The notes beneath the pieces were generated by a model, which had not been told where the DNA came from, made no database searches, and saw nothing but the letters and a program-made list of their open reading frames with translations. A stretch of 64,000 nt of DNA, taken from positions 1 to 64,000 of IMG/VR virus record IMGVR_UViG_3300027971_000028, one strand, 5' to 3'. The DNA comes from a virus. Shown piece after piece: positions 2,070-15,611 of the stretch (positions are counted from its first letter, which is position 1; every line of letters starts with the position of its first letter). A program made the position numbers and the translations under genes.

Positions 2070-2471
2070 GTGAACTCAGAACCCGTCTTCAATATCAATG
2101 ATGCATTAATACCGTCTGCCCGTAACTGGTCCTGGCAAGATAAAGCGCTGTGCAAAACTAACGGCGTGGACGTGACCGTGTTCTTTAATGATGACATGCT
2201 TCGCGGTCCTGAGAAGCAGGCACGGGAGAGTGCCGCCAAGAAAATATGTACGGCATGCCCTATCAAGACGGAGTGCTTAGAGCACGCATTAACGGTGCCC
2301 GAGAACTTCGGTGTGTGGGGAGGCTTGACAGAAGAGGAACGGATGGTTATTGTTAAGTTCAAGAGATCAATTGACAGAGCAGAGAAAGCAGGGATTAAAG
2401 CGGATGCTACTTCTTGGGTACATAGCGTACAAAGTGAATCAGATACAGAAACAATTACTACTACCGTCTGA
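2070..2471 (+). CDS. whiB: WhiB-family transcriptional regulator
   Basis: This 133-residue protein has the WhiB signature: Cys28, then Cys60, Cys63 and Cys69 (ICTACPIKTEC), which ligate a [4Fe-4S] cluster, followed by the GVWGG turn at 81-85 and TEEER. WhiB proteins bind the primary sigma factor and alter promoter choice; they are confined to Actinobacteria and their phages. The GTG start is set by the promoter 7 nt upstream, and the residues before the first Cys fit the family. The tail after about residue 110 is Thr/Glu-rich and variable. A role in host takeover or timing of phage transcription is inference. Confidence 0.93.
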   Translation: MNSEPVFNINDALIPSARNWSWQDKALCKTNGVDVTVFFNDDMLRGPEKQARESAAKKICTACPIKTECLEHALTVPENFGVWGGLTEEERMVIVKFKRSIDRAEKAGIKADATSWVHSVQSESDTETITTTV

Positions 2472-2659: not shown

Positions 2660-2977
2660 ATGACAAACCAATACAAAGCAGTAAACTCGAAAACCCTGAA
2701 AAGGCTGATCGATACCGCAAAAATGCTCAACTTCAATCAGTATCCTGAGAAGTCGCATAACTTATCTATGAATGGCATCCATGTTTTAAAGATGGTTGTC
2801 CAAGACCACAAAGGTCATACAAATAAAGACATCATTCATCACAGAGCATCTGTCTTGGCTAGTGTTGGTGGAAGTTCTGAACCAATAGAATTCCTACTTG
2901 ACATTAGAGATGAAGACTGGAATAATCTAGTTGATGCCAAAGCAATGGCAGATAGCGCAAGGGAATTAAATGTCTAA
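2660..2977 (+). CDS. Unknown protein, leaderless mRNA
   Basis: This 105-residue protein starts MTNQYKAVNSKTLKRLIDTA. The frame is open further upstream to 2591, but a consensus promoter lies within that stretch and would start the transcript at the ATG at 2660, so the shorter form is preferred. The middle (VVQDHKGHTNKDIIHHRASV) is His-rich. The gene overlaps the secreted protease gene downstream by 8 nt, so the two are probably co-transcribed. No family is recognised. Confidence 0.7.
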   Translation: MTNQYKAVNSKTLKRLIDTAKMLNFNQYPEKSHNLSMNGIHVLKMVVQDHKGHTNKDIIHHRASVLASVGGSSEPIEFLLDIRDEDWNNLVDAKAMADSARELNV

Positions 2978-3890
2978 AAAAGTTTTACTTATGGTGGTTG
3001 CGATATCAGCAACCCTACTTCCCCTTCAGTCTGCGAGCGCGGTTGGAGAAAAGACTTTAGTAATTATTGACTCAGGCATAAATACAGATTTGGCTTGGGC
3101 TAAAAACTCAGTTGTAGATGAGGCATGCTTCGTTGAGTTTAATAGATGTCCAAATGGATTATCACAAATGACTGGTGCTGGATCAGCAAAAGTAACTCCT
3201 GCTATGACAACTGCTGGTTCATTTAGTCATGGAACTCAAATGGCTTCAGTTGCGGTTGCGGTTGATCCAAATGTAAAAATTGTTTCTATCCGAGTTGCTG
3301 GTATGACTGCTAAGGGCGTTCCTAATCCTTACACAGCCAAAGCAATTTCTTGGGCGTTGGATTATGTGGAAGCAAATAAGGCACGACTTAATGTTGGTGC
3401 GGTTTCTATTTCTCTAGGTAACTCTTACAAATCAACTTCTTGTCCAATAGTTGGAAACCTACAAACACAGATTTCTAACCTAATGGCTTCAGGAGTAGCA
3501 GTTGCTATTGCAGTTGGTAATGGTGGCTCTACCAAAATTGACTACCCTGCTTGTATCCCTGAGGCAATTGCGGTTGGCGCAACTGAGGATAGATATGCCA
3601 TGAAAGAGGTGTCAGGTTGGGTGTATCCAATTATGGCTATCTCTAACTACAACTCTGATGTTGATTATTTCGTAAATGGTAAATACACAGTTTCTGATCT
3701 TTCAGATAATAAAAATGTTTCTTTCGGAACTTCTAACTCAACTGTGGCTTTTGCTACCTATCTAACCAAAAGACTTTCTGCTGGCGAGAACTTAACTGCG
3801 GTTTTGGCTAGCGTTAATGCTTCTCTAGTCAATGCCTACAAAACCACGACACTCTTTTATCCTAAGCAGTTTAACTTGACAAATGGTTAA
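2970..3890 (+). CDS. Secreted subtilisin-like (S8) serine protease
   Basis: This is a 306-residue protein. Residues 1-24 form a signal peptide (MSKK, a hydrophobic core, then SASA). The S8 catalytic set is present in order: Asp34 in IIDSGIN, His87 in SHGTQMAS, the oxyanion Asn184 in AVGNGG, and Ser255 in FGTSNSTVAFA, where cellular enzymes usually read GTSMAAP. Four cysteines (53, 60, 158, 195) could form disulfides after export. There is no obvious propeptide or C-terminal anchor. Subtilases hydrolyse proteins. A phage could use one to alter surface proteins, free cell debris or assist spread, but the role here is unknown. It is co-transcribed with the 2660 gene. Confidence 0.9.
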   Translation: MSKKVLLMVVAISATLLPLQSASAVGEKTLVIIDSGINTDLAWAKNSVVDEACFVEFNRCPNGLSQMTGAGSAKVTPAMTTAGSFSHGTQMASVAVAVDPNVKIVSIRVAGMTAKGVPNPYTAKAISWALDYVEANKARLNVGAVSISLGNSYKSTSCPIVGNLQTQISNLMASGVAVAIAVGNGGSTKIDYPACIPEAIAVGATEDRYAMKEVSGWVYPIMAISNYNSDVDYFVNGKYTVSDLSDNKNVSFGTSNSTVAFATYLTKRLSAGENLTAVLASVNASLVNAYKTTTLFYPKQFNLTNG

Positions 3891-7087: not shown

Positions 7088-8140
7088 ATGGACACTCTAA
7101 AAGAAAAATACAAAGAACTAAGTCCTAATCTTTCACCAACTTATTGGGAAATGATTATAGATGTAGCAACGCAAGGAGTAAATGAAAATGCGTCAAAGCA
7201 GTTATCTACCAATGTGCTTCCACAAGGACGCTATGTTGAGAGAGCGATTGGCTCTGACAGAAAAGCACGCAAAACAAAGGCAGATGCTCTAGTGAGTGTT
7301 GAGGCTTTGGGTGGCGAAAATATCTACTTGCGTCCTAATGGTTCTGCTTACCATGCTCGTATATGGGGGCAAAACAAAGATGTAGAAGTTTTACGCAAAG
7401 CAAGAGAAGCAACTAAACAATCAGTTCTAACTGGTGTTGGACAACCAATGTTTGCCATGCTTTATGGAGTTCCCGGAACAGGTAAAACTGCGCTGGTTGA
7501 GGCTTCTTTCGGCGAAGGTGTTCGCACACTACTTGGAAATGGTGATGTAGAAGTTGCCGACTTAATTGGTTCTTATGTCCAAACTCCTAGTGGAAACTTT
7601 GAGTGGATTGACGGCGACCTAGTTAAGGCAGCCGAAAATGGGGAAGTTTATTTCATAGATGAGATTGGTCTGATTGACCCTAAGGTTCTTTCAGTTATTT
7701 ACAATCTTATGGACGGAAAAAGAGAGATAACAATTACTGCTAATCCTGAAAGAGGAACAGTAAAATCTCACCCTGATTTCTATGTAGTTGCCGCAACTAA
7801 TCCAAAGGCTCCGGGCGTAAGACTTAGCGAAGCATTACTATCTCGCTTTGTTGTCCAAGCAGAAATGACAACTGATTGGAACTTGGCTCGTAGTCTAGGA
7901 GTGCCAACACAAATGGTGACTTGCGCACAAAACTTATATCGCAAAGTTCTGAATAAAGAAAGAATAAGTTGGTCGCCACAAATGCGAGAACTTCTAGCAT
8001 TTCGCGACATAGCAACAACTTTCGGAACTGAGTTTGCTATCGCAAACATGATTGCGTCTGCCCCAAATGATGATAGGGCAGTAGTAGCAGATGTTCTAAC
8101 CCGAGCCTATGGGGTAGAAGCAAAGCCTGCCAAAATCTAA
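7088..8140 (+). CDS. MoxR/CobS-type AAA+ ATPase
   Basis: This 350-residue protein has Walker A GVPGTGKT at 127-134, Walker B VYFIDE at 187-192, sensor-1 Asn238 in VVAATNP, and an arginine-finger candidate at Arg253 (LLSRF). The pre-Walker-B GDLVKAAENGE block and the overall order match the MoxR/CobS (AAA_5) clade. Such ATPases work with VWA-domain partners as chaperone-like remodelling machines or metal chelatases. The VWA gene follows 127 nt downstream under its own promoter. The N-terminal 115 residues are not recognised. The target in the phage cycle is unknown; a porphyrin or cobalamin chelatase role is not supported by neighbours. Confidence 0.92.
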   Translation: MDTLKEKYKELSPNLSPTYWEMIIDVATQGVNENASKQLSTNVLPQGRYVERAIGSDRKARKTKADALVSVEALGGENIYLRPNGSAYHARIWGQNKDVEVLRKAREATKQSVLTGVGQPMFAMLYGVPGTGKTALVEASFGEGVRTLLGNGDVEVADLIGSYVQTPSGNFEWIDGDLVKAAENGEVYFIDEIGLIDPKVLSVIYNLMDGKREITITANPERGTVKSHPDFYVVAATNPKAPGVRLSEALLSRFVVQAEMTTDWNLARSLGVPTQMVTCAQNLYRKVLNKERISWSPQMRELLAFRDIATTFGTEFAIANMIASAPNDDRAVVADVLTRAYGVEAKPAKI

Positions 8141-8266: not shown

Positions 8267-10042
8267 ATGGCTCATATTAAAATGAGTGAAACTCGCGCCG
8301 AAGCCACACCTAAAGAGTGGTTAGGAGTTGGTAGAGATATTGGGCAATTAGCAAATAAGTGGTCGCTTCGTGACGACCTTGTTGCGTATGTTGGTCCGGG
8401 TGCTGGTGGTCCTGCGCCTGCGTGCTATAACCCAACAACAGCAGAAGTAGAAGTAAATGTTGATGTCGCTTTCGGAAAAGGAATTACGCCACTAGAGATT
8501 GGTGATATTTCTAATCGCTCTACTCAGTATGAGTTTCCTAAAGCAACTGGCGCAATTATTCATGAAGCCTTTCATGCTCGCTTCTCAGGTTGGTCTATGC
8601 CTAAAGCGTATGAGGAATTAAAAAATGATGAATACAAAGCCTTAATTTTATTAGAGGAAAGTCGTATTGAGTATCAGGGTGTTATTTCTAATCCAAATGC
8701 TCGCGCCTTCCTTCGCGCCTGCGCTATGGAAATTGTTATTGGCGATACAAAAGATATGGAAAATGAAACACAAACACAATCTTTAACTAATCTTGTTGGA
8801 CTTGTTCATGCTCGTATTGACGCTGGTATCTTAGATGAGCATGAAGTAAAAGATGTGACTACAATTATTGAGAAGCAACTTGGTCTTGATGTTGTTTCTA
8901 AACTAAGAGAGGTAGTTCGTAAAGCGCAACTTCATGATAATCACAGGGACGCAACAGAACTTTATCCATTAGCAAAAGAGTGGGCAAAGATTGTTCGTGA
9001 TACTGCTAAAGAGCGTGGAGATGAAAACGCTGGTGAAGGTATGAAAATGCCTAAAGAACTTCTTAAAGCAATCATGGGCGCACTTGGAGAAGCAAGTGGT
9101 TCAGTAGAACTAAATAACTTTGAGGAACTTGCCAACCAAGAACAATCTGAGGATTGGAAAGAGGAAGTTAAGGCTAAGGCTTCTGACGCTAATGAGCAGA
9201 AAGAAAATGAAGTAGTGGCTCAGAAAGTATTCAGTAAGAGTTCCGGTCCGGGTCAATCAAATACTAATAGCACTTTAATTGAGAGCAGAGAACCTACATT
9301 TGAGGAATTGCGTGCTTCTTTAATTATTGGCGAAGCGTTAGAAAAAGCCAAGTATCGTGAGCGAGATGAGATACAAGTTTCTAGTATCGTGCCACCCGGA
9401 CGACTTCGCGCTCGCGCTATTGTCCAAAATACTGCTTATCGTGCTAGAGGACAAATGGCACAAGCAAAACCTTTCCGTAGAACAGTTCGCAAACATACAG
9501 ACGAACCAACTCTTAATGTTGGTGTAATGGTTGATATTTCAGGTTCTATGGGAAGTGCTATGAACCCTATGGCTACAACTGCTTGGGTAATGAGTGAAGC
9601 AGTAAATCGTATTCAGGGCAACTGCGCTATGGTTTATTACGGAAATGATGTGTTCCCAACTTTATCTGCTGGACAAAGATTAGATAAAGTAAATGTTTAT
9701 TCTGCTTCGGACGGAACTGAAAAGTTTCAGAAAGCCTTCCAAGCATTAGACGGCTCATTAAACTTACTTCATGGAACTGGCGCAAGACTTCTAGTAATTG
9801 TTTCTGACGGAGAATACACTCCTGAGGAAAACAAAAGAGCAAGAGAAGTTATGGAAAAATGTAAAGCGTCAGGCGTTGCGGTTTTATGGTTGCCCTTTGA
9901 TGACGGCAGAAGTGCAAAAGATATTGGTGGAGATTATGCCGAGATTGTTCTAGGTATAAATCAACCTGCCGAAACTGCCGAAGTTATTGGTAAGTCAGCG
10001 CAGGCAGTTATGACAAGAATTGGTGAGCGTGAAAGTGCTTAA
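8267..10042 (+). CDS. VWA-domain protein with HExxH motif, MoxR partner
   Basis: This is a 591-residue protein. The N-terminal part has HEAFH (His99, Glu100, His103) followed by a downstream acidic helix (LLEESRIEY, 129-136), the layout of a zincin-type metallopeptidase-like domain as in VWA proteins of the DUF2201 class. The middle is charged and helical. The C-terminal domain is a von Willebrand A fold with a full MIDAS start at 423-427 (DISGS) and a later VSDGEY. Together with the upstream MoxR-type ATPase it forms a MoxR-VWA pair. Whether the HExxH motif is active or only structural cannot be told from sequence. A TGA-free GTG microORF starts within its 3' end. Confidence 0.88.
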   Translation: MAHIKMSETRAEATPKEWLGVGRDIGQLANKWSLRDDLVAYVGPGAGGPAPACYNPTTAEVEVNVDVAFGKGITPLEIGDISNRSTQYEFPKATGAIIHEAFHARFSGWSMPKAYEELKNDEYKALILLEESRIEYQGVISNPNARAFLRACAMEIVIGDTKDMENETQTQSLTNLVGLVHARIDAGILDEHEVKDVTTIIEKQLGLDVVSKLREVVRKAQLHDNHRDATELYPLAKEWAKIVRDTAKERGDENAGEGMKMPKELLKAIMGALGEASGSVELNNFEELANQEQSEDWKEEVKAKASDANEQKENEVVAQKVFSKSSGPGQSNTNSTLIESREPTFEELRASLIIGEALEKAKYRERDEIQVSSIVPPGRLRARAIVQNTAYRARGQMAQAKPFRRTVRKHTDEPTLNVGVMVDISGSMGSAMNPMATTAWVMSEAVNRIQGNCAMVYYGNDVFPTLSAGQRLDKVNVYSASDGTEKFQKAFQALDGSLNLLHGTGARLLVIVSDGEYTPEENKRAREVMEKCKASGVAVLWLPFDDGRSAKDIGGDYAEIVLGINQPAETAEVIGKSAQAVMTRIGERESA

Positions 10043-15038: not shown

Positions 15039-15611
15039 ATGACAACTATTGCAGCGATACAGGGTGAGAACTGGGCTGCTATTGGGTATGACTCAAGGCT
15101 AACTGAAGACAATAGCAAGATCTATACGCTGCCTAAAGATAATGGCAAAGTAAATAGAAATGGTCCATACTTAATTGGCGCGGCTGGAGATATGCGTGCC
15201 ATCAACATACTTACACATGTTTTTAAGCCACCTGCGATAAATCCAAACCTTTACGGGGCAAAGTTGGATAAGTTTATTTCTTCAGTCTTTATCCAAGATA
15301 TGAAACACTGTTTCGAGGAGAACTCTTACAGCAAAGATGGAGAGCATGACTCTCAGGTAATGGTTGCGGTTAATGGAACTATCTACGAGATTGGTGATGA
15401 CTTCTCTTGGGCGCATGATGAAACAGGCGTATATGCCATAGGTTCAGGGGGCGGATACGCAATGGGAGCAATGCTGGCAAGCCTAGACAGCAAAAAGAAA
15501 ACCTTAGGCACAGCCAAAAATGTCATTAGACAAGCAATAACTATCGCTGCCAAGTTAGATCCAAGCACAGGGTTGCCGATCAATATCGCGGTGCAGCACT
15601 TCGGATCTTAA
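15039..15611 (+). CDS. Ntn-hydrolase, proteasome beta/HslV-like
   Basis: This 190-residue protein begins MTTIAAIQGENWAAIGYDSR. After Met removal Thr2 would be the N-terminal nucleophile, Asp18 takes the place of proteasome Asp17, and a Lys follows in the 33-37 region (PKDNGK). The later YLIGAAGDMRA and AIGSGGGYAMGAMLA segments match the fold's Gly-rich turns, and the C-terminal TGLPINIAVQ strand fits too. Proteins of this class occur in actinophages, where targets are unknown. There is no propeptide, unlike bacterial proteasome beta subunits. It may act as a small peptidase or amidase rather than a barrel proteasome. Confidence 0.85.
   Translation: MTTIAAIQGENWAAIGYDSRLTEDNSKIYTLPKDNGKVNRNGPYLIGAAGDMRAINILTHVFKPPAINPNLYGAKLDKFISSVFIQDMKHCFEENSYSKDGEHDSQVMVAVNGTIYEIGDDFSWAHDETGVYAIGSGGGYAMGAMLASLDSKKKTLGTAKNVIRQAITIAAKLDPSTGLPINIAVQHFGS

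Follow-up and report, generated by a model that had tools for sequence, protein, structure and literature searches.

Why should a virus of an actinobacterium carry, some 3 kb into its sequence record, a gene for an exported subtilisin-like protease, and how could such an enzyme manage without the propeptide of classical secreted subtilisins? The gene lies in the first part of a virus record of 133,336 bases, of which the initial 64,000 nucleotides form the window. Pfam and PHROG matches in the window include genes for the portal and for the major head and tail proteins; together with the WhiB regulator gene in the same stretch (Table) they rule out bacterial contamination of the contig. A second WhiB gene stands at ~67.8–68.3 kb of the record. 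A study of Nanopelagicales phages describes WhiB as confined to Actinobacteriota and as a key marker of actinophages (PMC10202952), so the host is, judging from gene content, an actinobacterium and the record that of an actinophage. A genome scan with the phage WhiB protein, aimed at the host, gave no match. Clustering and sequence inspection placed a WhiB-type gene within the fetched stretch at 39 subtilase loci.

The start of the subtilase gene is marked by the overlapping stop of the previous ORF, by AGGGA 5 bases before the ATG, and by relatives that begin at the same place with M-x-K. A start further downstream, which the original prediction had considered as a way of losing the signal peptide, appears unlikely because the N terminus is a textbook signal peptide whose first residue is shared by the relatives. 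This signal peptide, of the Sec type found in classical secreted subtilisins as far as sequence and a heuristic can tell, consists of a KK n-region, the h-region VLLMVVAISATLLPL and then SASA/VG; a simple heuristic rule for signal peptides is passed by 91 of 100 family members, compared with 87 of 1660 (5%) other ORFs in the same loci, and it is only here that the AlphaFold2 model falls below pLDDT 50. We saw no C-terminal membrane anchor, since beyond residue 60 no 19-residue window exceeds a hydrophobicity of 1.4, and no virion domain in this protein of 306 residues; the signal peptide and the single domain rule out a virion protein.

Table. Features of the subtilase gene and of its surroundings in the window.
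Feature	Position	Strand	Basis
WhiB regulator, actinophage marker	2070..2471	+	Pfam Whib, E 1.6e-21
Shine-Dalgarno-like AGGGA, 5 bases ahead of ATG	2960..2964	+	read from sequence
Exported S8 subtilase gene, 306 aa, family group A1	2970..3890	+	exact ORF, Pfam, AlphaFold2, Foldseek
Predicted signal peptide, aa 1-24, SASA/VG	2970..3041	+	sequence; 91/100 relatives pass simple rule; AlphaFold2
Catalytic Asp34	3069..3071	+	invariant 93/93
Four cysteines: Cys53 (3126-3128), Cys60 (3147-3149), Cys158 (3441-3443), Cys195 (3552-3554)	3126..3554	+	sequence
Catalytic His87	3228..3230	+	invariant 93/93
Short His87-Pro100 connection, 13 residues, without calcium-site-A loop	3228..3269	+	spacing, AlphaFold2 helix 83-98
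Oxyanion-hole Asn184	3519..3521	+	invariant 93/93
Asp191, aligned with subtilisin residue 166, S1 pocket	3540..3542	+	sequence alignments
Catalytic Ser255, in G-T-S-N-S-T-V (canonical G-T-S-M-A-x-P)	3732..3734	+	Ser 93/93
MoxR-type AAA ATPase, core gene; subtilase adjoins it in relatives	7088..8140	+	Pfam AAA_5, E 4e-19; synteny
VWA protein, DISGS and invariant HEALH motif	8267..10042	+	Pfam, motif inspection, synteny

Is this an isolated acquisition, or a member of a larger family? Scans of IMG/VR returned 30 relatives with the window protein, 126 with a 16-sequence alignment and 183 with a 50-sequence alignment, so that the family has at least 183 confirmed places by one scan, and its tree splits into groups A1 (to which the window belongs), A2, B, C1 and C2. 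The description of such enzymes as rare in phages outside virion fusions was thus too strong, the more so since other short phage S8 proteins are deposited in BFVD. No INPHARED record matched group A or B proteins by tblastn. A scan for two short motifs, which distant cellular kin would escape, covered 84,980 species of bacteria and archaea; not one of its 22 pattern matches encoded a relative. From these searches the family is apparently phage-restricted. S8 proteins as such are already known in phages; our literature search found no report of this family, two papers on freshwater actinophages make no reference to subtilases in the main text, and a propeptide-less, loop-less, phage-restricted S8 variant appears to be unreported in searchable papers.

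By fold, profile and catalytic residues the protein belongs to family S8. It matches Pfam Peptidase_S8 (PF00082) with E 7.2e-13 and 48.9 bits, the gathering score being 21.8; group C members also pass this threshold, and in one group B member Pfam did not detect the domain. The motif contexts are those expected: D34-S-G, H87-G-T, G-N184 and G-T-S255. The AlphaFold2 model built on the 50-sequence alignment reached pLDDT 89.8 and pTM 0.88, replacing a run on 16 sequences at pLDDT 57, and its top PDB match by Foldseek was subtilisin BPN' (1sua; E 3.6e-14, TM 0.64 by query and 0.74 by target). Engineered forms of the same enzyme are also the nearest sequences of solved structure. The catalytic quartet is invariant across 93 distinct relatives down to ~25% identity, and pairwise dN/dS within the family is 0.05–0.30, which together argue for an active enzyme under selection. 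Cys60, Cys158, Cys195 and Pro193 are likewise invariant in 93/93 distinct phage members, and the mature part holds exactly four cysteines in 97 of 100. The assignments with which this analysis started, namely the catalytic residues in S8 context, the signal peptide, the four cysteines, and a phage-encoded, exported and catalytically competent protein, are therefore all supported by sequence, structure and selection, and it is very probable that the gene encodes an exported active S8 protease.

What sets the protein apart is its front end. Only 33 residues precede Asp34 in the window protein, and 24 of these are signal peptide; groups A, B and C1 have ~29–34 residues before the catalytic Asp, nearly all signal peptide, and group C2 has 36–62. 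There is no room for the ~75-residue N-terminal propeptide of classical secreted subtilisins, whereas the cellular relatives carry 145–190 residues ahead of the S8 domain, a stretch we call a prodomain by eye, Pfam calling no I9 there. The connection from the catalytic His to the next Pro is also short, 13 residues in 93/93 phage members compared with 16–25 in cellular relatives; it aligns without gaps with BPN' forms lacking residues 75–83, and the model shows a single unbroken helix at 83–98. In the delta75-83 subtilisin this helix is likewise single and unbroken and refolding is greatly accelerated, and with an engineered disulfide refolding becomes 700–850-fold faster (PMC4865297). The His-to-Pro length of the phage protein equals that of these engineered forms. 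Loss of the site-A loop does not by itself free an enzyme from its propeptide, however, since proteinase-K-type enzymes lack this loop yet have a propeptide, and one cellular relative (L270) has an intermediate His–Pro spacing of 16.

The surroundings of the nucleophile differ as well. After the catalytic Ser, Met at +1 and Pro at +4 are each found in 0/93 members. The PROSITE patterns PS00136-138, in the form applied here, each match none of the 93 phage members, compared with 3/3, 3/3 and 2/3 of the cellular relatives, these patterns being annotation aids and not the definition of the S8 family. The loss of Met and Pro could mean altered chemistry, but that it shifted the chemistry towards peptide transfer seems to us highly improbable. 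In the S1 pocket, position 191 is Asp in 52/93 and Asp or Glu in 58/93 members, though not in group C1. An acidic residue at subtilisin position 166 favours Lys or Arg at P1, and from the alignment Asp191 would predict a preference for basic P1 residues. From all these features we infer that the enzyme is a subtilase minimal by nature, has no zymogen stage and is exported by Sec.

Comparison with known systems sharpens this picture. With subtilisin BPN' and its engineered delta75-83, calcium-independent forms (MEROPS S8A), the phage enzyme has in common the fold, the catalytic Asp, His, Asn and Ser, and Sec export; unlike BPN' it has no propeptide, has four cysteines and G-T-S-N-S-T-V at the nucleophile, and is only ~20% identical. 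The closest cellular relatives found are secreted S8 peptidases of Nonomuraea, Streptomyces and Sinorhizobium (L270, L271, L272; ~24–28% identity), which have the EACF...LCPNG cysteine motif and equivalents of Cys158 and Cys195, but a long N-terminal extension, a retained GTSMA-P, longer loops and C-terminal extensions. The suggestion that close host homologues might reveal capture of a host gene is not borne out by these, the closest being ~28% identical and bearing an N-terminal extension absent from the phage protein. Mycosins (MycP, TIGR03921), exported S8 enzymes of actinobacteria, are the top NCBIfam match, but at 27.1 against a cut-off of 278.75 the phage subtilase falls far short of membership, and unlike them it lacks a C-terminal transmembrane anchor; no type VII secretion genes were seen in the examined parts of the phage DNA. 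The PHROG family phrog_3677 ('protease'), 1125 positions long, matches residues 31–258, yet the window protein is not of that virion-fused type, in which the S8 domain sits inside a long structural protein. The short phage S8 proteins of BFVD (among them Lactococcus phage AM4 protease, Bacillus phage vB_BcoS-136 'subtilisin DY' and uncultured Caudovirales A0A6J5P4E2) have the S8 fold in common with it and are structural matches of only 14–24% identity. Lastly, the Aeromonas sobria protease (ASP/AspA, S8B) is one of two subtilases named as having no propeptide (PMC9549277), but the phage protein ends 51 residues past Ser255, with no room for the S8B P-domain, and no exported partner gene was seen beside it in this comparison.

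Turning to the genomic setting, the position of the gene varies by phage group, operon structure being read from gene order only. In group A2 the subtilase comes directly after the VWA gene, and in group A1 ~3–4 kb upstream of the MoxR–VWA pair; group B has an HslV-like gene on one side and in most cases a tRNA array 7–12 bases downstream; in C2 the HslV-like gene comes first and the subtilase follows at a distance of two or three genes, and in C1 a WhiB and a nuclease-like gene precede it. The subtilase occurs in 23 of 80 loci with the MoxR–VWA pair within the fetched flanks and, where whole records were searched, in 3 of 35, being absent from ten records longer than 110 kb. An empty site is seen in one locus (L249): the VWA gene there abuts the gene that in another (L245) comes after the subtilase. 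The MoxR–VWA pair is thus core and the subtilase accessory, gained and lost; a functional operon of the two is weakened as an idea, the core pair mostly occurring without the subtilase. The neighbours vary from one phage group to another and indicate no single function, and PADLOC gave no match of the subtilase to a known defence gene.

Some of these neighbours deserve mention in their own right. The MoxR ATPase, the VWA protein and a protein of ~151 aa form a core triad in ~80 actinophage loci. The VWA protein of the window has its HEALH in the N-terminal part, besides the DISGS metal site, and by these motifs is possibly a metallopeptidase-VWA. An HslV/20S-proteasome-like Ntn hydrolase lies at 15039–15611 (+) of the window. 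Its score for Pfam Proteasome is 22.5 bits (against 22.4), and its Thr2 immediately follows Met. Relatives of this hydrolase lie near the subtilase in 63 loci of groups A2, B and C2, so that a cytosolic protease and an exported one are often found together in these phages.

How might the enzyme work? We consider that it would be made in the infected actinobacterium and exported through Sec, whereupon the signal peptide would be removed and the chain would fold oxidatively on the outer side of the membrane, unaided by a propeptide. Absence of the calcium-site-A loop, and probably two predicted disulfides ordering the chain, would lower the kinetic barrier for which subtilisin requires its propeptide. 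That the protein folds with neither propeptide nor dedicated chaperone is, from these sequence features, probable, although a trans-acting chaperone may be encoded elsewhere. It would then be active immediately, without passing through a zymogen. A lytic virus has no need to spare its host by way of a zymogen, which may be what made loss of the propeptide possible. The active enzyme would cut exposed host-surface proteins, probably after basic residues, and the removal or alteration of these proteins would leave competing or sister phages unable to adsorb (superinfection exclusion) and keep progeny from sticking to debris. Overall, the explanation we favour is a phage-specific minimal propeptide-free S8 subtilase, exported and cutting host-surface proteins, to which we assign a probability of roughly 0.5. 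Surface shaving taken alone, among the roles that the original prediction had offered, is the most likely one, although we hold it with somewhat less than even confidence, and superinfection exclusion as its purpose is a more tentative proposal. Bolder still, and rather doubtful as a whole, is the thought that actinophages evolved a large clade of propeptide-free, zymogen-less subtilases as an exported exclusion or surface-remodelling enzyme, matching the engineers' solution of losing calcium site A and adding disulfides.

Other readings need to be weighed against this. The enzyme might aid release, as the original prediction had also proposed, by degrading wall-anchored or S-layer-like proteins late in infection, letting the endolysin open the cell and progeny escape. 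In many group B phages at most a few genes separate the subtilase from holin-like and CHAP endolysin genes, and an S-layer-like protein with a signal peptide is encoded nearby in phages of groups B and C. In the window's phage, however, a lysis role is disfavoured because the lysis cassette is separate and on the other strand: the CHAP endolysin lies at ~123.1–123.6 kb on the minus strand, ~120 kb from the subtilase at ~3 kb on the plus strand, so the latter is not beside a holin or endolysin gene of its own strand. Groups A1, A2 and C1 have no directly adjacent lysis gene, and many close phages lack the subtilase altogether, so that we regard a release aid as unlikely. We think no better of a maturation protease that would trim one secreted phage or host protein, as mycosin, cyanobactin and lantibiotic proteases do, without general shaving. 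In its favour, the top NCBIfam matches, though weak, are to mycosin, QhpE and dentilisin PrtP, and two of these three are proteases dedicated to processing; further exported proteins occur in related phages, and Asp191 suggests a defined P1. Yet no exported partner lies beside the subtilase consistently from group to group, and the mycosin score, about 27 against 279, counts against it.

Digestion of extracellular protein for peptide uptake by the infected cell would suit an accessory cargo gene of variable location, but no peptide-uptake gene was seen nearby and a diffusible enzyme would feed neighbours as much as the producer, with little viral gain per cycle, which makes this reading improbable. 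Least credible is a degenerate S8 fold kept for binding, without a working protease: the universal loss of Met and Pro after the catalytic Ser and the failure of the three signature patterns would fit it, but a pseudo-protease is rejected on the invariance of the catalytic residues and the selection described above.

Secreted proteases have scarcely been considered among phage cargo genes, and a family recurring across several actinophage lineages would make host-surface proteolysis during infection testable. Because it lacks the propeptide, the calcium-site-A loop and the usual nucleophile motif, the phage subtilase also lends itself naturally to the long-standing question of why subtilisins depend on a propeptide.

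We note several further exported or surface-related proteins in these phages. Signal-peptide, S-layer-like repetitive proteins lie close to the subtilase in groups B and C (L169:4615-5730, L102:1262-2365, L018:1740-3449); they gave no Pfam or PHROG match where tested and are perhaps phage-made surface proteins. In group B phages an exported PA14-domain protein (L102:2498-4645) stands directly 5' of holin-like ORFs; PHROG ties part of it to tape-measure proteins, and a homologous stretch occurs in the window's record at ~103.6–104.0 kb. A second exported protein of 380 aa with the signal peptide MLKNKVRILGLATALTLIASPAFA (L106:4345-5484; ~68.3–69.5 kb of the window's record) comes just after the second WhiB gene and has no Pfam match. 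Finally, the minus strand of the record at ~74–124 kb holds many repeated tail-fibre-like ORFs with GPTGATG collagen-like stretches and repeated 'MPILGTQASQNTKSFL' starts, a region that by its sequence looks like one of receptor-binding diversification.
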